From Nitrospira lenta (lineage in GTDB: Bacteria > Nitrospirota > Nitrospiria > Nitrospirales > Nitrospiraceae), in assembly GCF_900403705.1 (NCBI RefSeq), contig NZ_OUNR01000001.1, forward strand, positions 62,001 to 126,000: a DNA stretch of 64,000 bases, in the 5' to 3' direction. Position 1 is the first letter of the stretch, and every line of letters begins with the position of its first letter. The notes beneath the pieces are model-generated. The model was not told where the DNA came from. It saw only the letters and a list, made by a program, of their open reading frames with translations, and did no database searches. Both the position numbers and the translations under genes were made by a program. Below, one piece after another: positions 40,514 through 59,565 of this stretch.

Positions 40514-40801
40514 CTACGCTCTTGGCTTCCCCTGCCGCGCATCGCGCATCCCGACCAGCACTTGCTGAATTTGCTGATGCAGCCGCGCCAGCACATCCAC
40601 GCCCATCGCCACGCGAGTGACGAGATGACCTTCCAATCCCTTTGGAGCAGCCTGTCCATCTTTCGCCGTCTTCGCAATGGCACCGAGTAGCGCAGGCTCG
40701 ATGAAGCCGAAGTCCACATAGGCAATCCCCTGCGCCACGCCGACGTTGGTATAGTTCGTCGCGAGCGAATGGGCGCTTGATTCACTCGGCTTCACCCGCA
40801 C
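40514..40801 (-). CDS. DUF3467-like small protein, module 1 copy (5' end frameshifted)
   Basis: 95 codons from GTG 40801. The core (HSLATNYTNVGVAQGIAYVD, FGFIEPALLGAIAKTAKDGQ, LEGHLVTRVAMGVDVLARLH) is nearly the same as in the copies at 46330-46653 and 59242-59565. The layout, a beta strand with VDFGF, a second strand ending in VTRVAM and a C-terminal helix LARLHQQIQQVL, resembles DUF3467. The true ATG of the other copies corresponds to ATG 40835 (MSTVKTDDL), which is out of frame by one base here, so this copy has probably lost its normal start. Confidence 0.6.
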   Translation of the reverse strand: MRVKPSESSAHSLATNYTNVGVAQGIAYVDFGFIEPALLGAIAKTAKDGQAAPKGLEGHLVTRVAMGVDVLARLHQQIQQVLVGMRDARQGKPRA

Positions 40802-46329: not shown

Positions 46330-46653
46330 TCACGCTTTCGGCTTCGACTGCTTCGCATTGCGCATGCTGACCAGCACTTGCTGAATCTGCTGATGCAATC
46401 GCGCCAGCACATCCACCCCCATCGCCACGCGGGTGACGAGATGACCTTCCAAACCTTTTGGCGCCACTTGGCCATCTTTTGCCGTCTTCGCGATCGCCCC
46501 GAGCAGCGTGGGCTCGATGAACCCGAAATCCACATAGGCAATGCCCTGCGCCACGCCGACATTCGTGTAGTTCGTTGCGAGCGGATGGGCGCTTGATTCA
46601 CTCGGCTTCAACCGCACATTTAATTTGAGGGCCTTGTCTTTTGGTTCACTCAT
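46330..46653 (-). CDS. DUF3467-like small protein, module 2 copy
   Basis: 107 residues: MSEPKDKALKLNVRLKPSES, then HPLATNYTNVGVAQGIAYVD, FGFIEPTLLGAIAKTAKDGQ and LVTRVAMGVDVLARLHQQIQ. AAAGGAG lies 9-10 bases before ATG 46653. About nine of ten residues match the copy at 59242-59565. No signal peptide or membrane helix, so it is cytoplasmic. The function of the family is unknown. Strong conservation beside divergent secreted partners suggests an adaptor or chaperone-like role, but this is a guess. Confidence 0.7.
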   Translation of the reverse strand: MSEPKDKALKLNVRLKPSESSAHPLATNYTNVGVAQGIAYVDFGFIEPTLLGAIAKTAKDGQVAPKGLEGHLVTRVAMGVDVLARLHQQIQQVLVSMRNAKQSKPKA

Positions 46654-47270
46654 GTTCAAAAACTCCTTTATTGCAGTATCCCGTGACGACACCACACACG
46701 CAGCCGCCATTGCACCGCAGGAATGCCACCATCTATATTCACTCCTAACAAAATCATGCGCGGCAGCATCGTATATTCGGATTCATTGCAAATGTGACGG
46801 CGATCATGCCACACCCCAAACAAAAACTCCCGACCTCTTGTATACGACCGCTTTGGTGAATGGTTGTCGCTTCGCCATCGGACGCCTCCTGGGGATGCAT
46901 TGCCCCCTCTTTGAGGTGTCCATGAAAACGGGGCTAGCTCAGGAGTTTTTATGTCGATGGTGGAGTAACAGACGAGTGCTGATGTCGCTACGCCTGGCGA
47001 TGGATGGCCGAGAGACTTGACCTCTATGTGGCGGGATGCCGTGACTCCAGGATCGGCAAGATCCTGTTCACGGGATGGCGATGCGGCGTAATCCGCTCGT
47101 GCACAAACGCCCCGGTGAACTGGATCCGTTCGCAGGGGCTCGGCCTTCCCCTCCAGCCCCTCGCAGACACGCTCACATCTCGAGTTGCATCTCAGCCAGC
47201 TCTCAATGGATCTCCGCGCCTTCGAGGCTAGAGGGGCTGCGCCCTCGTTCCCTCTCGCTCCGCGTGGCTC
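46654..47270. other. Intergenic region between module 2 and tpsA
   Basis: About 617 bases. It holds the module promoter motif (46732-46748). A stretch near 46918-46943 reads GGTGTCCATGAAAACGGGGC, reminiscent of an IS3-type terminal repeat, but no transposase or second end is seen. The tpsA stop is at the right edge. Frames here (for example plus 46625-47020) lack family features. Confidence 0.45.
46732..46748 (-). promoter_or_regulatory. Shared module promoter motif, copy 2
   Basis: TTAGGA-N5-TATAGA on the minus strand, 79 bases before ATG 46653. Same order and spacing as at 40907-40923 and 59645-59661. Confidence 0.45.
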
Positions 47271-50200
47271 CTATTCCTGCGTCTGCGCCTCGATCACGAT
47301 CAGGATCCGGTGCTCCTGGAAGGTGGTGGCAACCGTCGTGGGGAGCGACACGGCGTCCGTGGCCTCAATGTGGAAAGTGGCCGTCTGGGTATCGTACGTC
47401 AACCACGCCGGCAATGGCGCGCCCTCTGGGCCGCTCAGCGCATCTGGAGTCCCACCGATGTTCTGAATCAGGCCGTCGGGCAGCGTGAAGGACACCGTGC
47501 TTCCCTGTGTCAGCAGGCTCCGTGGGATCGAGACGTAGACCATTTCGGGGTCCTCACTCGACGTGCGCGGCTCCCACTTCAACACCACCGTGTGAGGACC
47601 GTCGGTCGACGAAGAGGACAACGAGGTCAGTTGTGCGTCGGCTGCGCCTCGCACCGTCCCTTCCAGTCTATAGTTCGGCAAGGCCTGAGACCCCTCAACC
47701 GGCACAGTCGACGAGGAACCGAACAGCGGCTGGGTGCCACGGCTCAATTGGGCCATCGCATCGACGGATTGGTCTTGGGCATGAACGCCGGTAATATCGG
47801 CGGTCGTGGAGGCCTGGCCGAGGACCGTGTAATTGCTGAGATCGGCGCCGCCATAGAGCGTCCCGCTGAGCGCGACCGTCTTCCCGACGCCCACCTGGGC
47901 ATCGGCAAAGGTGCCGACGGTGGCGTGGGCGGTCAGCTCGTCGCCTGGCACGATGTTGGTGAAGGTGGCACCGCCATGATCGACGGTGGCCGTGGTGGTG
48001 CCGTCGTAGGGTTTGTTGGCGGCAGTGAGGCCCGACACCGTGACGCTACGCCGCGCAATGGTGCCATTCGTGCCGGCCACCGTCGTGCCGCTGGCTAGTG
48101 AGTAGTTGCCGACATCCGCGCCACTGACGTGGACGCCGCTGATGGTGTACCCGAGATTCGTGCCGGCATTCTTCGTGGCGAAGATCACGTTGCCGGTGCC
48201 TGAAACCGCATCGCCTGTCCAGACCCCCGATACGGTGACACCCGTTCCGGTGAGGAGCGCCGTACCGTCGTAGGTCTTCGTCACCCCACTGGGGAAGACC
48301 GTCAAGGTGCTCGGGGTGACGGCGTGTTGGCCGGTGAGGGTCACGGTGTGGTTGAAATTCGCGCTGGTGGTGGAGAGGTTGGTGGCGCCAATGGTGTGAA
48401 TGCCCACCGGCACCAGTCCAGCACCGCTCAGGGTCGCGCCGGGCACTCCGACGGTAAAGTGGGCTGCTCCGCCGGCGCCATCGGTAATGGTGATCGCATT
48501 CCCCGTCGCACTCACATTGCCGGTCAGGTCCACGATCGTGGCACTGGTGCCGGACAAATAGCGCGCGCGCGCGATGCCGTAGATCGGGGCCGTGCCGTAG
48601 GTCGTGGCGATATTCGCCACCTGGACCAGGAGCTGATTCGCCGGCACGATCGTGTAGGTCCCGGCGCCATAGGCAATGGCATAGTTACTGGAGGTCAAGC
48701 CGCTGGGGAGGAGAACGTTGGCGTAGGTGCCCGCGCTCGTGGTGCCGACGTTGCTGCGGGTAATGGCTAGGGTGCCGCTCAGGACGCTACTCGTCTCGCC
48801 ATTCACCAGGCCGGAGTAGGTCACGCCCGCATATCCACCCGCGTCGCTTTCCGTGACAAACCGGGCATCATGGTTGGCCTGTATCGTCAAGGCTTTCGGC
48901 GTGATCGCGGCCGTGGTGGTCACGGTCGTGCTGCTCAGCTGATAGTTGCCGGCGAGGCCGCCGCTCGTCCCATCGGTGAGGCTATAGCCGGTGGCGGTCA
49001 CGGTCTTGCCGATGCCGGCGTTTGCGTCAGTAAAGGTGGCAGTCGTGCCGCCGGTGAGGCCCAGGGTTTCGCTCCCCACGCCGGTAGCCACGCTGCCCGT
49101 GCCAGTGACCGTGGCAGCCGTGGTGCCGTCATACACCTTGTCAGCCGCCGTGAGGCCGCTGACCGTCACCGTTTTCGGCGTGATGGCGGCCGTGGTGGTG
49201 GTCTGGTCGGTGATGGTGTAATTAGCGGCATCGGTGCCGCCGTAGGTGCTGCTCAGGGTGACGGTCTTGCCCGTGCCCACGTGCTTCGTCGCAAAGGTGC
49301 CGGTGGCGCCGGCGAGAGTCAAGTTGTCGCCGCTGACAAGCCCGCCAAAATTCACCGCGCTGCCGTTGATCGTCGCAGCCGTGGTGCCGTCATACACCTT
49401 GTCGGCCGCCGTGAGGCCACTGACCGTCACGGATTTGGGCGTGATGGCGGCCGTGGTGGTGGCGGTGGTGCTGCTCAGCTGATAGTTGCTCGCGAGGCCG
49501 CCACCTGCGCCATCTGCGAGACTATAGCCGGTGGCCGTGACGGTCTTGCCGGTGCCGGCGTGACGGTCGCTGAAGGTGGCGCTCGTGCCGCCAGTGAGGC
49601 CTAGGGTTTCACTCCCCACGCCGGTAGCCACGCTGCCCGTGCCAGTGACCGTGGCCGTCGTGGTGCCGTCATACACCTTATCCGCCGCCGTGAGGCCGCT
49701 GACCGTCACCGTTTTCGGCGTGATGGCGGCCGTGGTGGTGGTCTGGTCGGTGATGGTGTAATTGGCGGCATCGGTGCCGCCATAGGTGCTGCTCAAGGTG
49801 ACGGTCTTGCCCGTGCCCACGTGCTTCGTGGCAAAGGTGCCGGTGGCGCCGGCGAGAGTCACGTTGTCGCCGCTGACAAGCCCGCCAAAATTCACCGCGC
49901 TGCCGCTGACCGTCGCAGTCGTGGTGCCGTCATACACCTTGTCGACCGCCGTGAGGCCACTGACCGTCACGGATTTGGGCGTGATGGCGGCCGTGGTAGT
50001 GGTCTGGTCGGTGATGGTGTAATTGGCGGCATCGGTGCCGCCGTAGGTGCTGCTCAAGGTGACGGTCTTGCCCGTGCCCACCTGTTTCGTGGCAAAGGTG
50101 CCGGTGGTGCCGGCGAGAGTCACGTTGTCGCCGCTGACAAGCCCGCCAAAATTCACCGCGCTGCCGCTGACCGTCGCAGTCGTGGTGCCGTCATACACCT

Positions 50201-53200
50201 TATCCGCCGCCGTGAGGCCGCTGACCGTCACCGCTTTGGGCGTGATCGTGGCCGTGGACGACGCCGTGGCGGCCAGCGCATAGTTGCTCCCGTCGAGTCC
50301 TCCGACTGTAAGGCCCGTAATGGTGACGGCCTTATTGACGCCGGCCTGTTTATCAGCAAATGCACCGCTGCCGGACACCGTCACCGTATCGCCGGACACA
50401 ATCCCGCTGGTGTTATGCGAGAGTGACGCCGTCGTCGCACCGTCATAGACTTTATCCGTGGCCGTCCCCGTGTAGGTCAAGGCTTTCTGATTGACCGTCA
50501 GCGTCCCCACTACCGAACTCCCACTCGCGTAGCCGAGCTGCTCCGTCCCCCCGCTCGCCGTCACGGCATGGCTTCCAGCCGTGAGATGCCCGCTAGTGGA
50601 GGTACTCCCGCCGACCGAGGCGGTGGGGGCCACACTGAAGATCTGGGTCGCCGTATCGCCGTTGACCCCGGTCGCGGACAGGGTGAAGGTAGGAACGGAG
50701 CCGCCATAGGTCATCGTCTGATTGGTAGCCGTCACCGTGACCGACGGCTGCTCGCGATACACTCCATACCGTCCGCTGCCCAGCGCCGCCGTAAAATTGC
50801 TGGCTGCCTCGTCGCTGTGATAGCGGAATCGCCCGCTGCCACTGCCCACGACCGTGGTCAGCCCGGTGCTGCCGCTCACGCTGCCCGAATAGAGCGTGGC
50901 CCGGCCGCCGCTGCCCACGCTGATCGTAGGGCTGCCACTTATGAGGAGGTTGCCGCCGGTGGCCGTGCCGGCCGCGGTGTCGCGGCCCGCATTGAGGACC
51001 AGGGCACTGGCGCTGGTGGCAGAGGTCGTGGTGGCAGCCGCGACGGTGAGGTCGCCACTGGCCGTGCTGAGGTCGAGGTCGCCGCTGGCCGTGATCCCCG
51101 TCGTGGCGCCCACGCTGCCCAACGTCAAGGCGCCGCTGTTGCGGTAGCGCAGATTACTCACGCCGCTGGCGGCCAGCGTTCCCACATTGGAGCTACTACT
51201 ATCCAACGTGACCGTGCCGCCGGTGATGGCCAATTGCGGCGCCGTCAGGGCGCCGCTCGGGCCGTCGGTCAGCGTGCCGCCCGCGGCCAGCGTGATGGCC
51301 CCACCGCTGCTGGCGACCGCACGGTCGATGGCGAGGTTCCCGCCAGTGGCCGTGAGGGCCACCGCGCCGGCTACTGCAATCGGCCGATCCACCGTCAGGT
51401 CGGTGGCCGCGGTGGCGCTGACGGTCCCGCTGCCGGTGATGCCGCTCGCATGCGGCGCCAACGCGGACAGGGCAACGCTCCCCGCGCGGTTGAACCTGAG
51501 CGCGGCATTGGTGGTGACCGCGCCGGTCCCCAGCACACCCGTGCCGCCGCCGTTGCCCACGGCCAGCGTTCCGGCCGACACGGTGGTGGGGCCGCTATAG
51601 AGGTTGGTGCCGGTCAAGGTCAGCGTCCCGCTGCCGTCCTTGACGAACGAGGCATCGGTGCCGCTGACCACGCCGCTGTAGGTGGACGTGCCGCCTTGCG
51701 ATACCGTCATCGTGCGGCCATCGGCCAGCCCGACGCTCCCGTTGCCGGTGAGGCCCGTGCCGGCGGTGATGGCCACATTGCCGGTCCCGGCGTTGGTAGT
51801 GGCCAGGCCGGCGTTCAGCGTGATAGTGCCGCCATACAGCGCGATCGGGCCGTTGATGTTTTGTGCCGCTGTCACCGTGATGTCGGCCGTGTTGCCGGCC
51901 TTGCCCAGCGTCAGGCCGGTCAGGCCCGAGGCCACGCTCAAGTTGGTACGCGGCCAGCTCAACGCGCTGCTGAAGCTGGTGCTGAAGGGTTGCACCGTCA
52001 AGGTTCCGGTGGTGTTGACGGCCATGGTCCCGTCCAGGGTCAACACATCACCGGTGAGCGTGACGTTGCTGCTGCTGGCGGTGATGCTCGATCCCGCCTT
52101 GCCGCCCAGGCGTGCGCCGGTGCCGTGGACGTAGATGCCTTTGGTGCCGCCATCCACCTGCACGGCACCGGTCGTGGCCAGCAGATCTTGGTTCTGCAGG
52201 TAGACGCCGTAGCCCGAGCCGGCACCCGTGCCGGCAATGGCGATGGAGCCCCCGCCGGTGGCCAACACTTCTTTGGGGTTGTTGTAGTTGAAGACCAGGC
52301 CGTGGTTGGCAGCCGAGGTGCCGGTCAGCGAGATGGCCGTGCCCGACGCCTTGCTGGACACGAGGCTGAGGTGCGAGAGGCCGTCGTTGTCGTTCACCGG
52401 GTCGCCGAAGTTCAGCCCATAGAAGTTGGTGCTGGTGCCCGCCATAAGGATGGCGCCGGTGCCCGCATTCGCGGTGAAAAAGCCCGGCTGGTGGATGCCG
52501 GTGTTGTCGCTCACCGAGCCGGAGCTGGCCGTGCTGGCACCGCGGATCACGATGTCACCGCCGCCAGACCACATCTGCATGGTGCTGGCCCTGGTGGCGC
52601 CTAGCTTGACGCCGATGCCGGTGCTGCTGGACGCATAGCCATCAGGCACCCCGTCGCCAGCGACGCCGCCATTGGCGCCGTTGTCGGCTCCGCCCGCCAA
52701 TACGATGGTGCCGCCGCCCGACAGGTTACTGCTCGTCGAGCCGTTGGCCGTGTTCAGAGAGTTGTTGTCGCCCAGCTGGATGGCCCCGCCGCCGGTCGCG
52801 TCGCTGTCGCTCCACAGCGTGAGCGCGCCCTGGTTGGTCTGCAGCATGCGCCCGGTGTTGGTGACGATGTTGCCCGTCGCCTTCACCAGCATGCCGGCGC
52901 CGGCCTGCGTGCTCGTCAGGTTGCCATTCAGCGTGATATTGCCGCCGTACAGCGCGATCGGTCCGGCCACGCTGAGCGGGTTGCTCAGCGTCAGATCGAA
53001 GGTGTTGCCGGCCTTGCCCAGCGTGAAACCAGACAGCGTGGTGCCGAAGTTCCAGTCGTTGTCGAAGCTCAGGCTGCCGGTGTCGGCGCGCAGTTGGGTA
53101 AAGCTAGCGCCGACCGGGCGGATGGTCAGACTCCCCGTACCTCGCACGCTGATTGAGCCGGCTCCGCTATTGACCGCGCGCTGCAGCAGTGAGTTGGTCT

Positions 53201-55511
53201 CGATGAGGATGTTCCCGCTGTAGGGGGTGGTCCCGTCGTAGCCGATGCGGATGTTATCGGCACTATCGCTCGCCGTCAGCCGGAGGCCGTTGAGGTATTG
53301 GCCGGACTCCAGCGTATTACTGCCCCGCAGCGTGATATCACCGCTTTGCGACACCACCGCGATCGAGCTCGTCGTGCCGGAGGTTTGAAGTTGCAGACCG
53401 GACGCGTCATTGGTTGCCGCCGAGGTGAACTGCGCCTGGCCGTCGAGCGTGATACTGCCCGTGGTGCTGCGAACCGTGACCTGTTCGTTGGCGTTCTTCG
53501 CGTTCACTAACACCCCATGGCGCCACCCGCTCCCGCTGCTTGAGTTGGAGCCGCTGCCGCTAATCGAGATGTTCCCACTGGTGGTGGACAGCAGCACGTT
53601 GCCGGTGGTGGAGCCGGACGGCGCATTCCCGATGACCGTGCCGATCCCGTTGATATAGCGCCCATCGAGGGACCCGTCGATCGAGATGTCTCCCGAGGTG
53701 GTGGAGAGGGTGCTGCCGCCGTAGACGGCCGCGCCGACGTTCAGGTTGCCCGTGGTCGTGGCGGTATAGGCGCTCTTGCCGTTGATGGAGATGCTGCCGG
53801 CGCCGGTACTGATACTGCTGCCGGCGATCGACGCCCCTGTCACATCATACGACCAGGTGGAGGCCTGGGCCCTTCCGACCGTCAACCCGTTCCACCCGCC
53901 GACAAGCACATTTCCGCCGCCCATCCAGAGATGGCCGCCGTTGGTGGCGATGTTGCCGCCGTTGACGTAGATGCGGCCGTCGTTGCCCTCACTGTTGTAC
54001 CGCGTCCACAACACCAGGTTCAGTGCGCCTGAGGTGGAGGTAATGGTGGGGTTGGTCAGGGTAATGTGGCTGCCGCCCGATGGGTTGCCCGCTCGCAAGG
54101 TGAGCGTCGCGTCGCCACCGGCCGTCTTGTTCAGCGTCACGCCGGAATTCCAAGTTATGCTGCCGGTCACGTCGTTCAAAACGGAGGTGCCGGTGTTCAG
54201 TGTGGTGGCGTAGCTGTTGGCGACCGATTGGGTAATGGTCGAGTCCGTCGGGTCCAGGTACCAGAGGCCGCCGTCGCCGAATGACGCGCCGGCGTCCACG
54301 TAGGCGCCGCCCACGTCGAGCCGGTACCCCGAGGTTTCGATCTTCCCGCCGTGGCCGCCCAACGCGCCGCCGCGCGCCCGAATCTCGCCGAACACGCGGG
54401 TGCTCGACTGGGGCTGATGAATATCCGACCACAGCACCGCGGTGCCGCCGTCGCCGCGCTGGGTGGCGCTGACGTCGATGCCGGCGCCTTCGGCCATAGT
54501 GACGGTGGTCGCGTGCTGCATCGTCCCGCTGCCTTGCCACCCCCCGCCGACGAGGATTTCTCCTCCGCCGGTGGCGCCGGTCGCGGCCGTGATCGACCGG
54601 GCTCCCAGCGTGATGGCGTCGCCTTCAAGCCGAATACGCCCCCCCGTACTGACGAGGCTGGAGGCCTCAAGGCGGCCGTCGTTCCGCACGACGCTGCCCT
54701 GGAGCTGATGGGCGGCCACGGCGGAGAGCACGATATAACCGCCGGGCGCCAAGACGGCCTGGCTGTTTTCCACGAGCGTCTGGATCGACGCGGGCTCCAC
54801 CCGAATCCCTTGGAGCTGTCGGCTGGGATCAAACCGCAGTTCATAGGCTTCACCCGCGGCCAACGCGACGGTGCCGAGTTCGGCAATGATGACGCCGTGG
54901 TTGCGGACTTCTGGCGCGAGCAGAGCGATGTAGCCCTGCAGCGACGCGCGGAGCTGGCCTTCGTTCACAATGCTGCCGAGGGCGCCGTTGCGCGTGAACC
55001 GGTCGCGGCCGGCCATGAAGTCATCGAGGGTGATGTGATGGGTGGTAGCCAAGAGGCCGCCGACATCCACGGTGGCACTGGGCGCGAAATAGATCCCATT
55101 GGGGTTGGAGAGAAAGACCTGTCCGTTGGCGGTCAGCTTGCCGAAGATCTGTGAGGCCTCGGGGCCAAGGATACGATTGAGCAGGACGCTGCCCGAGGAG
55201 GGCTGATGAATATCGACGTGGGCGGCGCTGCCGATATTGAAGCTCTGCCAGTCGATGGCGGCTCGGGTGGTCCCTTGCTGAATCGTCATCAGCGAGTCAT
55301 GGCGGCCGATCGTCGCTTGTCCCCCGACGACCTGTTCTCCGGTGGGAAGTTGGGCGGGGGCGGGCGGGCTCGCGGGGCCGGCGGCATGGCCGATCAGATG
55401 GGGGCTCAGCAGCAGCGCTACCAGGCTGACGGCGGACAGAGCCCGACGCCACCGGGGACCGTGAGGCGCGGGGAGTGGCTGCATCGACGAAGACCAGACA
55501 GACGCGGTCAT
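47271..55511 (-). CDS. TpsA: giant filamentous-haemagglutinin-type exoprotein with YDG/MBG repeats
   Basis: 2746 residues. Signal region ALSAVSLVALLLSPHLIGHA, then the TPS secretion domain (about 50-300; GQATIGRHDSLMTIQQGTTR, NRILGPEASQIFGKLTANGQ, VFLSNPNGIYFAPSATVDVG). A long beta-helix part follows, with an autotransporter-type strand repeat (GSGTLTLTGTNLYSGPTTVS, plus 51560-51640). The C-terminal third has eight YDG motifs (KVYDGTTTATV and kin) and MBG-type domains. It would be exported across the outer membrane by the TpsB encoded upstream and act as an adhesin. AAAGGAG precedes ATG 55511; the frame upstream is an untranslated purine-rich leader. Confidence 0.9.
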   Translation of the reverse strand: MTASVWSSSMQPLPAPHGPRWRRALSAVSLVALLLSPHLIGHAAGPASPPAPAQLPTGEQVVGGQATIGRHDSLMTIQQGTTRAAIDWQSFNIGSAAHVDIHQPSSGSVLLNRILGPEASQIFGKLTANGQVFLSNPNGIYFAPSATVDVGGLLATTHHITLDDFMAGRDRFTRNGALGSIVNEGQLRASLQGYIALLAPEVRNHGVIIAELGTVALAAGEAYELRFDPSRQLQGIRVEPASIQTLVENSQAVLAPGGYIVLSAVAAHQLQGSVVRNDGRLEASSLVSTGGRIRLEGDAITLGARSITAATGATGGGEILVGGGWQGSGTMQHATTVTMAEGAGIDVSATQRGDGGTAVLWSDIHQPQSSTRVFGEIRARGGALGGHGGKIETSGYRLDVGGAYVDAGASFGDGGLWYLDPTDSTITQSVANSYATTLNTGTSVLNDVTGSITWNSGVTLNKTAGGDATLTLRAGNPSGGSHITLTNPTITSTSGALNLVLWTRYNSEGNDGRIYVNGGNIATNGGHLWMGGGNVLVGGWNGLTVGRAQASTWSYDVTGASIAGSSISTGAGSISINGKSAYTATTTGNLNVGAAVYGGSTLSTTSGDISIDGSLDGRYINGIGTVIGNAPSGSTTGNVLLSTTSGNISISGSGSNSSSGSGWRHGVLVNAKNANEQVTVRSTTGSITLDGQAQFTSAATNDASGLQLQTSGTTSSIAVVSQSGDITLRGSNTLESGQYLNGLRLTASDSADNIRIGYDGTTPYSGNILIETNSLLQRAVNSGAGSISVRGTGSLTIRPVGASFTQLRADTGSLSFDNDWNFGTTLSGFTLGKAGNTFDLTLSNPLSVAGPIALYGGNITLNGNLTSTQAGAGMLVKATGNIVTNTGRMLQTNQGALTLWSDSDATGGGAIQLGDNNSLNTANGSTSSNLSGGGTIVLAGGADNGANGGVAGDGVPDGYASSSTGIGVKLGATRASTMQMWSGGGDIVIRGASTASSGSVSDNTGIHQPGFFTANAGTGAILMAGTSTNFYGLNFGDPVNDNDGLSHLSLVSSKASGTAISLTGTSAANHGLVFNYNNPKEVLATGGGSIAIAGTGAGSGYGVYLQNQDLLATTGAVQVDGGTKGIYVHGTGARLGGKAGSSITASSSNVTLTGDVLTLDGTMAVNTTGTLTVQPFSTSFSSALSWPRTNLSVASGLTGLTLGKAGNTADITVTAAQNINGPIALYGGTITLNAGLATTNAGTGNVAITAGTGLTGNGSVGLADGRTMTVSQGGTSTYSGVVSGTDASFVKDGSGTLTLTGTNLYSGPTTVSAGTLAVGNGGGTGVLGTGAVTTNAALRFNRAGSVALSALAPHASGITGSGTVSATAATDLTVDRPIAVAGAVALTATGGNLAIDRAVASSGGAITLAAGGTLTDGPSGALTAPQLAITGGTVTLDSSSSNVGTLAASGVSNLRYRNSGALTLGSVGATTGITASGDLDLSTASGDLTVAAATTTSATSASALVLNAGRDTAAGTATGGNLLISGSPTISVGSGGRATLYSGSVSGSTGLTTVVGSGSGRFRYHSDEAASNFTAALGSGRYGVYREQPSVTVTATNQTMTYGGSVPTFTLSATGVNGDTATQIFSVAPTASVGGSTSTSGHLTAGSHAVTASGGTEQLGYASGSSVVGTLTVNQKALTYTGTATDKVYDGATTASLSHNTSGIVSGDTVTVSGSGAFADKQAGVNKAVTITGLTVGGLDGSNYALAATASSTATITPKAVTVSGLTAADKVYDGTTTATVSGSAVNFGGLVSGDNVTLAGTTGTFATKQVGTGKTVTLSSTYGGTDAANYTITDQTTTTAAITPKSVTVSGLTAVDKVYDGTTTATVSGSAVNFGGLVSGDNVTLAGATGTFATKHVGTGKTVTLSSTYGGTDAANYTITDQTTTTAAITPKTVTVSGLTAADKVYDGTTTATVTGTGSVATGVGSETLGLTGGTSATFSDRHAGTGKTVTATGYSLADGAGGGLASNYQLSSTTATTTAAITPKSVTVSGLTAADKVYDGTTAATINGSAVNFGGLVSGDNLTLAGATGTFATKHVGTGKTVTLSSTYGGTDAANYTITDQTTTTAAITPKTVTVSGLTAADKVYDGTTAATVTGTGSVATGVGSETLGLTGGTTATFTDANAGIGKTVTATGYSLTDGTSGGLAGNYQLSSTTVTTTAAITPKALTIQANHDARFVTESDAGGYAGVTYSGLVNGETSSVLSGTLAITRSNVGTTSAGTYANVLLPSGLTSSNYAIAYGAGTYTIVPANQLLVQVANIATTYGTAPIYGIARARYLSGTSATIVDLTGNVSATGNAITITDGAGGAAHFTVGVPGATLSGAGLVPVGIHTIGATNLSTTSANFNHTVTLTGQHAVTPSTLTVFPSGVTKTYDGTALLTGTGVTVSGVWTGDAVSGTGNVIFATKNAGTNLGYTISGVHVSGADVGNYSLASGTTVAGTNGTIARRSVTVSGLTAANKPYDGTTTATVDHGGATFTNIVPGDELTAHATVGTFADAQVGVGKTVALSGTLYGGADLSNYTVLGQASTTADITGVHAQDQSVDAMAQLSRGTQPLFGSSSTVPVEGSQALPNYRLEGTVRGAADAQLTSLSSSSTDGPHTVVLKWEPRTSSEDPEMVYVSIPRSLLTQGSTVSFTLPDGLIQNIGGTPDALSGPEGAPLPAWLTYDTQTATFHIEATDAVSLPTTVATTFQEHRILIVIEAQTQE
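48900..50480 (-). repeat. Tandem YDG-domain repeats within tpsA
   Basis: Six successive units with a period of about 258-277 bases, each starting near VTVSGLTAADKVYDGTT. Several units are almost identical at the DNA level (for example those around 49660-49920 and 49920-50190). Such repeats can recombine and change protein length. Confidence 0.85.
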
Positions 55512-55553
55512 GGCACGGACTCCTTTGCCAAATACGTGAACAATGCGTCGGCG

Positions 55554-55594
55554 TTCTCTTTCTCTCTTTCTCTCTTTCTTTCTCTCGCTCGCTC
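55554..55594 (-). repeat. Purine-rich microsatellite in the tpsA leader
   Basis: Plus strand pyrimidine tract built from TCTCTTTC-like units, then CGCTCGCTC; on the transcribed strand it is GA-rich. It lies 43-83 bases upstream of the tpsA ATG, between tpsB and tpsA. Slippage could alter leader length or spacing. It has irregular units, so it may also be a static unstructured leader. Confidence 0.6.
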
Positions 55595-55681
55595 TGGTGG
55601 TGCTCCTGCGGAACGACCGGCTCCTGCACACCACCTGAAGGTGGACGGAGACACGGGAACGACGTGTTCGCGCGCCCCGCG

Positions 55682-57388
55682 CTAAAACAGATAACTCGCC
55701 GAAAACCAGAAGCGGTTGAGGTCCAGCGACCCATCCTGATCCTTGCCTGCGGCGGTCGGATTCGGGTTGTCCCCGAGTCGATGCGCCCAAGTGCCCTGCA
55801 CCACCAAGCCCAGCGGACTGCGCCAACTCAGCGTCACGCCGCCGCCTTTGAGGGTGTAGCTGTGTCCGATGGACGATTGGTTCGAGACATGTCCCGCATC
55901 GAAAAATCCGGTCAGACCGAATCCCCAGGGGAGATACCCTCGCACCTCACCGGTCGTGACCCAGCCGGTGGAGCCACCCGCTTCATAGACGGGATAGGCC
56001 CGGACCGTCTGGGGGCCGCCGATATACAATCGTTCCGCCGAATCCATGGCGGAAAAGGCTTTCTGCCCGAGGAAGGACCCGTAGAGAGAGACCCAGGGAT
56101 GGACCCGTTGTTCATGGGCCGCATACCACGTGAGCTTGGTGAAGGTGCCTTCGACATGGGGATTTTCGCCGAGTTGGCGAGTGCCCTGATCGACGTATCC
56201 TTGGACGAGCGTCAGGCTGCCGAACGTCGCGCCGGGCATGCCCAAGATGTTTTCATACCAATTGCCCGCGAGGCCTGCGGAGCCTTCATTGATGCGGTAG
56301 TCAGACTGGCGGATATGGGCGGCGTCATTGTCAAAATGCCGGTGATCGTAGGTCATCTTCCAGTACAGGTTGTAATCCCTGGTTCGCACGAGAGGATACG
56401 ACGCCTCCACCCCCAGGCTATAGGCGTTTCCCTTGACATCGAGCGCGGCGAATTCCGAGGTCACCAGGCGATACGCGAGCCACGAGCCGTTGACGCCGAT
56501 GCGCCACCCGTCACGGCCGAGAGGCAGGGTATAGGCCACTCGCCCGTACTGGCTCCCTTCCGACCACATGGTGTTCACCGTGATGAGATCCCCACGATGA
56601 AAGGGGCTTTGCAAACGCAGGCTGGCAAGGCCCTGAATGGAACCGGTAGCACGCGGGCTGCTGTTATCGATGCTCAGATCGCCGTGCACGATCGGTTCGT
56701 CGGCGGTCCTGACGCGCACATTCGTCGTGCTGGGCTCCGTGCCGGCTTCGAGGGCACCCGACACCTGGACTCCCGGCAAATCGTCAGCCAAGAGCAGCCC
56801 TCGATCAAGGGCGTGGCTGTTGAGGTGCTGGCCCGGTTGAAGTTGCCGATCGATGAGGCCTACGACGTATTCCGGCTCGACCCGCGTGGGCGGCGGGTCA
56901 TCAAGGGAGACCTGGCCCAAAGTCGCTTCGACGATCGCGATGAGAACCATGCCATCCGTAATGTCTTGCTGCGGGAGATAGGTCTGCACGACCCACCCGG
57001 CGTTCCGATAGCGATCAGCGACGGCGGCAGCGGCCTCTCTCAGTAAGGGCAGATCCATTTGACGATCGATATACGGCGCCACCGCGGCTTGCAGCTCTTC
57101 CGCGGTCAAGCGGGTATTCCCCTCAAATCGATAGGCGGAAACTCTGACCGTGGCGGAGGGTGGAGCGGGCTCTTGAAGGGGCCGCGCGGGCGTGTTGCTT
57201 GGGGTTTGGGACGGGAGCTGTTCCAGGCGCTCCTGGTCACGTTCTTGCTGGCGCCGCTGCTGAAGCCCGCCGGCGTCCGGCACGGTTTGCGCCAGGGTGA
57301 GTGACACGTAGGGGCTCACGTGGCCGACCGTCGTCAGCGCGAGACTCATGAGCAACGCCACCCGGTATGTTCCTGACAAAGCGATCAC
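55682..57388 (-). CDS. TpsB: ShlB/FhaC-type two-partner secretion transporter
   Basis: About 568 residues from GTG 57388 (AGAGAGG upstream). Signal peptide (VALLMSLALTTVGHVSPYVS), a Gln/Arg-rich linker (QQRRQQERDQERLEQL), two POTRA domains (VRVSAYRFEGNTRLTAEELQ; LGQVSLDDPPPTRVEPEYVV) and a 16-strand barrel with the Omp85 lid motif as RLYIGGPQTVRAYP. The barrel ends in FWFSASYLF with a terminal Phe. It exports the TpsA protein encoded 170 bases downstream. The longer frame to 57544 is rejected because it lacks a signal peptide at its start. Confidence 0.9.
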   Translation of the reverse strand: MIALSGTYRVALLMSLALTTVGHVSPYVSLTLAQTVPDAGGLQQRRQQERDQERLEQLPSQTPSNTPARPLQEPAPPSATVRVSAYRFEGNTRLTAEELQAAVAPYIDRQMDLPLLREAAAAVADRYRNAGWVVQTYLPQQDITDGMVLIAIVEATLGQVSLDDPPPTRVEPEYVVGLIDRQLQPGQHLNSHALDRGLLLADDLPGVQVSGALEAGTEPSTTNVRVRTADEPIVHGDLSIDNSSPRATGSIQGLASLRLQSPFHRGDLITVNTMWSEGSQYGRVAYTLPLGRDGWRIGVNGSWLAYRLVTSEFAALDVKGNAYSLGVEASYPLVRTRDYNLYWKMTYDHRHFDNDAAHIRQSDYRINEGSAGLAGNWYENILGMPGATFGSLTLVQGYVDQGTRQLGENPHVEGTFTKLTWYAAHEQRVHPWVSLYGSFLGQKAFSAMDSAERLYIGGPQTVRAYPVYEAGGSTGWVTTGEVRGYLPWGFGLTGFFDAGHVSNQSSIGHSYTLKGGGVTLSWRSPLGLVVQGTWAHRLGDNPNPTAAGKDQDGSLDLNRFWFSASYLF

Positions 57389-57703
57389 GGTTGCCTCTCT
57401 GATACAAACCTGAGCTTGGCAACCAAGACGGGTGGATGCCACCAAACAGTCGTAGTTACTATCGGAAAAATTCGATAAAACTTTAATGATAAATACCGTA
57501 CTGGTGCGCAGCACGTAACAATACGAGTAGCGCCAAGTCGGCATTTCTTGAATGGTACTTACATCAGGAACCTTACATTACTTACCTTAATTTATTTTGA
57601 TTCCGCACGCAGCGGGCTAAGAGTCGAGTGGCATCATCGCCGCTCTCGATCAGTGACGTCAGGCGCTTAGCAGGCGAGGGGCTGGGCAAAGAACGGAGGC
57701 CTT
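57389..57703. other. Intergenic region upstream of tpsB
   Basis: About 315 bases, with a markedly AT-rich stretch (57465-57500; CGATAAAACTTTAATGATAA) that may hold the tpsBA promoter. The far side is the tail of the RAYT remnant. No gene seen. Confidence 0.45.
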
Positions 57704-58206
57704 CTACCTTTCCACCAGTTTCTGCGGGAAGCCGATTGGTCGGAGGCTCGCATCCAGCCCCAGCAACCTCGCCGTCACCGCCATCCATGCGTCCGATCCA
57801 AACGGGGCGTTAGGATTCATGCGCCGTCGGATTCGATGGACCGCTGTTTCCTCCACGGCTTGGTCACCATGTGAGCCAAGGCTCTGGTCGCGGAACGGGA
57901 CCGGCTTCCCCCCGAAGACCTTGCCCAGATTCGCTCCACGTACGCGCACTCGACCTTCGCCAATCTTCGGCGCGGGCCACAAGATGTGCACGGACGGGAT
58001 TCAGTTCGATGGAGCGCAAGATGGATATGATTCGGCATGAGACCGCACGCCAGGAGTCGTATCGGCATCCGGTCACAGGCCGGCCCCAGCAAACCGATGA
58101 AGGCCTGATAGTCTCCGTCCGTATGAAAGGCTTAGGCCTAGCCATTGCCACGATTGATGATGTGGTAACAATACTCTCCGACGGAGACCCGCGCCGTGCG
58201 TGGCAT
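57704..58206 (-). pseudogene. Second-type RAYT transposase remnant with stops, deletion and frameshifts
   Basis: The start MPRTARVSVGEYCYHIINRG runs into two in-frame stops (TAG and TAA at 58135-58140), continues as AFHTDGDYQAFIGLLGPACD and LLACGLMPNHIHLAL, loses the central part, and resumes in other frames as LNPVRAHLVARAEDWRRSSA and PFGSDAWMAVTARLLGLDAS. The last is the usual RAYT C-terminus (YGSEAW-like). It is a different RAYT lineage from copies A and B. Confidence 0.75.
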
Positions 58207-59241: not shown

Positions 59242-59565
59242 TTACGTTTTCAGCTCCCCCTGCCGCGCATCCCGCATACTGACCAGCACTTGCTGAATCT
59301 GCTGGTGCAATCGCGCCAGCACATCCACGCCCATGGCGCCACGGGTAACGAGATGACCTTCCAATCCCTTGGGCGCGGCCTGGCCATCCTTCGCAGTCTT
59401 CGCAATAGCCCCAAGCAGCGCGGGTTCGATGAACCCGAAGTCCACATAGGCAATCCCCTGCGCGACGCCGACGTTGGTGTAGTTCGTTGCGAGCGGATGG
59501 GCGCTCGATTCACTCGACTTCAACCGCACATTTAATTGGAGGGTCTTGCCTTTTGGTTCACTCAT
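59242..59565 (-). CDS. DUF3467-like small protein, module 3 copy
   Basis: 107 residues, full length: MSEPKGKTLQLNVRLKSSES, HPLATNYTNVGVAQGIAYVD, FGFIEPALLGAIAKTAKDGQ and GHLVTRGAMGVDVLARLHQQ. One notable change is VTRV to VTRG. No signal peptide. It is upstream of, and probably cotranscribed with, the secreted-protein gene. Confidence 0.7.
   Translation of the reverse strand: MSEPKGKTLQLNVRLKSSESSAHPLATNYTNVGVAQGIAYVDFGFIEPALLGAIAKTAKDGQAAPKGLEGHLVTRGAMGVDVLARLHQQIQQVLVSMRDARQGELKT

Follow-up and report, generated by a model that had tools for sequence, protein, structure and literature searches.

A GA-rich tract of 41 bases in the spacer between tpsB and tpsA of Nitrospira lenta, a free-living nitrite-oxidizing bacterium, is probably best read as an ordinary lineage-specific microsatellite in an unconserved leader. 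It occupies 55554–55594 on the minus strand of the window (the whole stretch of DNA that was analysed, 64 kb long), with purines at 39 of its 41 positions, and contains an unbroken purine run of 33 bases (55554–55586, minus strand) and an array of 3.1 perfect copies of the octamer AGAAAGAG, 25 bases long (55555–55579, minus strand). Tandem Repeats Finder assigns period 8 to 55555–55583, with 3.6 copies, 95% matches, and a score of 51. Followed along the minus strand from 55594 to 55554, the tract can be written as ten tetranucleotides starting with GA plus one base—by eye GAGC GAGC GAGA GAAA GAAA GAGA GAAA GAGA GAAA GAGA plus A—a series that is imperfect, its longest perfect stretch of period 4 being 11 bases (2.75 copies). 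The purine content and the period-8 array bear out the initial annotation, which had described a GA-rich 41-base tract with 8-base repeats between the two genes; the tract is genuine, if short and imperfect. Roche 454 sequencing is given as the source of the 'Nitrospira lenta' BS10 draft genome (PMC6251164); errors typical of 454 are unlikely to be behind the tract, because no homopolymer in it exceeds three bases.

The surrounding genes form a two-partner secretion locus. The tpsB reading frame (55682–57544, minus strand) encodes an outer-membrane transporter with POTRA_2 and ShlB domains, and tpsA (47271–55511, minus strand; start picked by its AAGGAG-ATG, with Pfam and orthologues as further support) a secreted exoprotein of 2746 aa with the TPS secretion domain (PF05860), eight YDG and two MBG_2 stretches. 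PF08479, PF03865, and PF05860 all scored above their cut-offs, and the tpsB/tpsA naming given earlier is correct, with POTRA_2 and ShlB in the partner and TPS and YDG domains in the large protein; its family suggests that TpsA is an adhesin. Position 57544 is the first possible start of the tpsB ORF and the true start may be downstream, which two terminator-like sites on the minus strand (57515 and 57443), inside the first part of this ORF, would fit. Within the 170-base spacer (55512–55681, minus strand), the ribosome binding site AAGGAG (55520–55525, minus strand) stands 8 bases before the tpsA ATG, and the tract is separated by 28 bases from AAGGAG and by 43 from the ATG (first base 55511); the 43 bases that had been reported as the distance to the ribosome site are therefore the distance to the start codon. 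No sigma-70-like promoter or terminator was recognised at 55400–55900 by a scan that may not fit the promoters of this organism, and thus co-transcription with tpsB is the simplest assumption; we infer the shared transcript from the arrangement of the genes. The same kind of scan before tpsB (57200–58200, minus strand) recognised no promoter either, so it may not know those of this organism. Upstream of the tract, an inverted repeat, CCACCT-TC-AGGTGG (55631–55644, minus strand), is present; we claim no role for it, since the predicted fold gives its bases other partners and the whole stretch is no more stable than its shuffles. The spacer was also considered as a conserved regulatory RNA and dismissed (fold z 0.94; 167 of 200 shuffles fold at least equally well).

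Two further features of the locus were recorded. Inside tpsA, a 261-base unit is repeated 2.3 times at 93% in the YDG-coding part (49646–50257); recombination between these units would alter TpsA length and seems more likely than the leader tract to generate variation. The tpsBA pair is flanked by two small ORFs (…SESSAHPLATNYTNVGVAQGIAYVDFGFIEP…) of nearly identical sequence that point the same way (46330–46710 and 59242–59565, minus strand), an arrangement that would suit an insertion or duplication of the pair between copies.

The tract itself reads as leader and not as coding sequence, because AAGGAG is well spaced to the ATG at 55511 and, in the closest orthologue, a comparable AGGAG...GTGCCATG is preceded at short distance by an in-frame stop. 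The tpsA frame is open for at least 389 bases upstream, and a translational frame switch would use this property: with an upstream TpsA start, gains or losses of 4 or 8 bases in the tract would bring the protein in or out of frame, and the frame is indeed open from a TTG at 55826 through the tract. We consider such a switch extremely improbable, as the predicted upstream peptide is highly charged (RASERKKERKRERERRR), the AAGGAG-ATG is downstream of the tract, and the orthologous stop lies in the same frame.

The tract is not a chance product, since its 33-base run and 25-base array exceed the maxima found in shuffled sequence: across 100 dinucleotide shuffles of the 64 kb window, the longest run of purines or pyrimidines averaged 15.6 bases and peaked at 24, and the longest perfect period-8 array in 40 shuffles was at most 20. 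The second-longest purine or pyrimidine run of the window has 18 bases. Comparison was extended to a sample of the genome (3,756,190 bases in 22 contigs) made up of the window and 20 stretches, one of them overlapping the window, with 464 kb read and 456 kb distinct. Within these 456 kb the tract is the longest purine run, the sole perfect array with at least three copies and more than 15 bases at periods 1–12, and the only period-8 array having at least three perfect copies; its Tandem Repeats Finder score is not unique, as one period-10 array equals it. A pattern of 28 purines was found at three loci genome-wide, the tract included, and the two others differ in sequence and fall within small lysine/glutamate-rich reading frames. 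Of 59 genomes from the genus and order, counting the window's, 46 carry at least one such purine run. A long purine run per se is not rare; the tandem octamer is. The spacer region is present once in the genome at E 0.001, and a mobile or repeated element was rejected.

The two other purine loci (L082:13258–13470, or G000:C1:1093257–1093469, and L083:10552–10758 on the minus strand, G000:C19, about 40551–40757) encode a pair of small paralogous proteins, apparently secreted, whose lysine/glutamate-rich repeats (GGHVV..EEKKKEEKK) are spaced 48 bases, and their purine string recurs across several genomes of the genus.

The 33-base run also contains an exact mirror repeat of 23 bases, to which a DNA-level element could be ascribed, the mirror-symmetric tract forming a triplex (H-DNA) or binding a regulator and thereby affecting transcription of the operon. 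Mirror symmetry arises automatically from tandem GAGA/GAAA units, however, neither promoter nor terminator was recognised nearby, and the seven orthologous spacers described below show no conservation, all of which leaves such an element very improbable.

Repeats of the same kind are scattered far beyond this genus. A 24-mer of the tract recurs in 45 stretches in a collection of 84,980 species, from many unrelated phyla, in arrays of 25–93 bases (the lower bound being set by the pattern), and 30 of the 45 are outside ORFs by crude ORF calling. A preference of the purine strand for facing genes was considered and rejected: among the 30 intergenic stretches, five presented the purine and 10 the pyrimidine strand to a gene start at most 300 bases away (crude ORF calling, all 45 counted). 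Since the 24-mer is scattered over phyla and has no strand preference, the octamer would appear to be a generic, expandable unit with no sign of a common role. A 22-mer was found in two of the 235 genomes of the order, the window's and one other (G211), where it sits 382 bases ahead of the following ORF and is flanked by two genes whose proteins are apparently secreted (G211:C27, L130:1501–1522).

Close orthologues of TpsA—with 67–81% identity in the portion of the first 304 residues that matched, at E 1e-60 or better—were identified in seven of the 235 genomes of the order besides the window's (G145, G138, G031, G076, G022, G098, and G048), the N-terminal part of the closest being 81% identical. 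None of the seven orthologous spacers has the tract. The longest purine run inside the spacer is 11 bases in G145, 7 in G138, 6 in G031, 12 in G048, and 7 in G098, and runs in the 400 bases upstream of the match do not exceed 10 in G076 and G022. Spacer lengths vary from 45 (G031) to 321 bases (G098), with starts picked by eye, and no spacer aligns to that of the window beyond shuffles: the alignment score was reached by 17 (G022), 44 (G048), 73 (G098), 84 (G076), and 91 (G031) of 200 mononucleotide shuffles, and by 138 (G145) and 386 (G138) of 500. The last 300 bases of tpsB are 74% identical in G145, yet its spacer aligns no better than shuffles. These results speak against a conserved cis-regulatory leader, and against the suggestion that the leader is fixed insofar as it concerns differences between species: with no such tract in any of the seven orthologous spacers, the system does not carry it as a fixed feature.

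The same picture was obtained across the genus. In a set of 24 upstream stretches from 22 of the 79 genomes searched, the window's tpsA included, the 400 bases before the 23 other TpsA-like matches have a longest purine run of 13; at the more distant loci, where counting begins at the protein match itself, the upstream stretch may leave out some of the true leader. The rest of the genus was searched for a related spacer, and this too was rejected: at E 0.1 there are matches in 15 of the 79 genomes, counting the window's own, the G098 stretch matching at E 5e-6 falls in the end of tpsB, and the other matches are weak, short pieces (E 0.003 to 0.09). The string AGAGCGAGCG, which is shared with the G022 spacer, was discarded as an expansion seed because 17 of 200 shuffles do equally well. 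The tract looks young and outside the common design of the locus, to judge by these sequences. Genome collections with a single genome for each species turned up no second N. lenta strain, nor did the plasmid collection contain a match. Single-sequence patterns found no relative in the named genome collection, a search of low reach that missed known orthologues too. The BO1 Nitrospira genome is not a second strain, its identity to N. lenta being given as 76.44% (PMC10868196). One orthologous locus, G031:C157 (L003, L033), was unusual in that its tpsB orthologue matches with one TAA counted inside, which may be a natural stop, and in that its tpsA open frame has 927 aa compared with more than 2800 in some relatives and may be cut by the contig end.

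The leader had also been proposed to be unstructured. The tract is predicted to be little paired, with a mean unpaired probability of 0.57, compared with 0.38 (sd 0.09) in stretches drawn at random from the window, 2 of 150 being as high. The same 33 bases placed in 100 random contexts average 0.73, and 78 of the 100 contexts leave them at least equally open; predicted openness therefore follows from composition alone, and the tract's own surroundings, if anything, would close it somewhat. On this control, openness was rejected as a sign of selection. A selected ribosome standby or enhancer—a single-stranded, Shine-Dalgarno-like purine tract in a structured spacer, kept at fixed length—is consequently judged an unlikely alternative, with arguments on both sides. 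The leader before the tract has a predicted unpaired probability of 0.27 against 0.57 in the tract, the computed pairing of two GAAAGAGAGA stretches with a generic 16S tail (−8.9 kcal/mol) is much like that of the true site AAGGAG (−8.7 kcal/mol), and a single-stranded standby surface is described as able to change translation rates strongly (PMC3936740). Like standby sites in bacterial 5' UTRs, the tract is a stretch of little predicted pairing that precedes the ribosome site within a structured leader; that study measured translation on 136 synthetic leaders (PMC3936740), whereas here the evidence is a fold prediction in which openness comes from composition. With 78 of 100 other contexts at least as open, the spacer is not shaped to expose the tract. 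The 16S pairing would be expected of any GAAAGAG or GA-rich stretch, the tail used for the duplex energies being a generic sequence that may differ from this genome's. The ribosome site itself is already open (0.61), and the orthologues manage without the tract. A weak standby role is possible on the predicted fold, although that absence from the orthologues counts against it as well.

The gene kind and the place of the repeat are the same as those of the two-partner secretion adhesins HMW1A and HMW2A of Haemophilus influenzae, and slippage control of the adhesin, as for HMW1A, is possible by analogy. HMW1A is reported to have tandem heptamers in its promoter region and, for one transcript, in the 5' UTR, with more repeats giving less transcript, and heptamer arrays upstream of both hmw1A and hmw2A lower expression at higher copy number (PMC8262952). 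A repeat survey of the same species, in which the minimum for octamers was three uninterrupted units, describes octamer arrays of 12–15 copies of GCATCATC 200–213 bases upstream of hmw genes, and an array of ATTATTTG upstream of a pyridoxine gene with 1, 4, and 6 copies among strains (PMC2651432); differences between strains are thus documented for arrays of only 4–6 copies. The present array shares with these octanucleotide arrays its unit length of 8 and its upstream place, but the unit and the organism are different, and variation between strains is documented for the H. influenzae arrays (PMC2651432). With hmw1A/hmw2A it shares a tandem repeat of 7–8 bases before a two-partner secretion exoprotein gene, at a distance of 43 bases here and roughly 70–106 there. 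The hmw arrays have 13–38 perfect copies, overlap mapped promoters, and have documented length variation and expression effects (PMC8262952, PMC2651432), unlike the tract, which has 3.1 perfect copies, no recognised promoter, and a spacer position behind tpsB. The hmw unit is written ATCTTTC (PMC8262952), which suggests that there the coding strand carries the pyrimidines; here it carries the purines.

We therefore regard it as unlikely that the tract is a contingency locus, in which fast gain and loss of octamers would alter tpsA transcription or translation as the heptamers do for HMW1A/HMW2A. In its favour, the array lies in the leader of a surface-protein gene, 28 bases before the ribosome site, and barely reaches the three-unit octamer limit (25 bases, 3.1 copies). 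It falls far below the copy numbers of the hmw heptamers, the remainder of the tract is interrupted, no promoter was recognised around it (55400–55900, by a scan to which the promoters of this organism may differ), and the seven orthologues are without it; titles and abstract openings of the papers found for Nitrospira with two-partner secretion or with phase variation include none on the subject. It is more doubtful still that a young contingency locus is present, in which a new octamer array already changes adhesin output and aggregation in activated sludge, acting via ribosome access and not via a promoter.

Our favoured explanation is that of a recent, species-specific microsatellite in the mRNA leader, which is probably neutral or weakly tuning. 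A short GA-rich seed in the fast-changing tpsB–tpsA spacer of N. lenta would have been expanded by replication slippage to about ten tetranucleotides starting with GA, and partial diversification would have spared a single perfect octamer array (3.1 copies). If the two genes are co-transcribed, the tract would be present in their mRNA as a little-paired purine stretch 28 bases before the ribosome site, presumably acting as a passive spacer or, at the utmost, offering the ribosome a weak standby surface. An occasional 8-base change might retune output slightly and would keep the tpsA frame, because translation starts downstream of the tract. Counting against a passive microsatellite are the place of the array, since the longest perfect array of 456 kb sits before a surface-protein gene, a place that chance by itself would not favour, as well as the open tpsA frame upstream and the weak matches in the genus.

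Should the length of the tract vary, repeat-driven variation of adhesins would extend from host-associated bacteria to an environmental nitrifier of activated sludge; if it is constant, the tract would be an example of a short microsatellite arising in an unconserved spacer.
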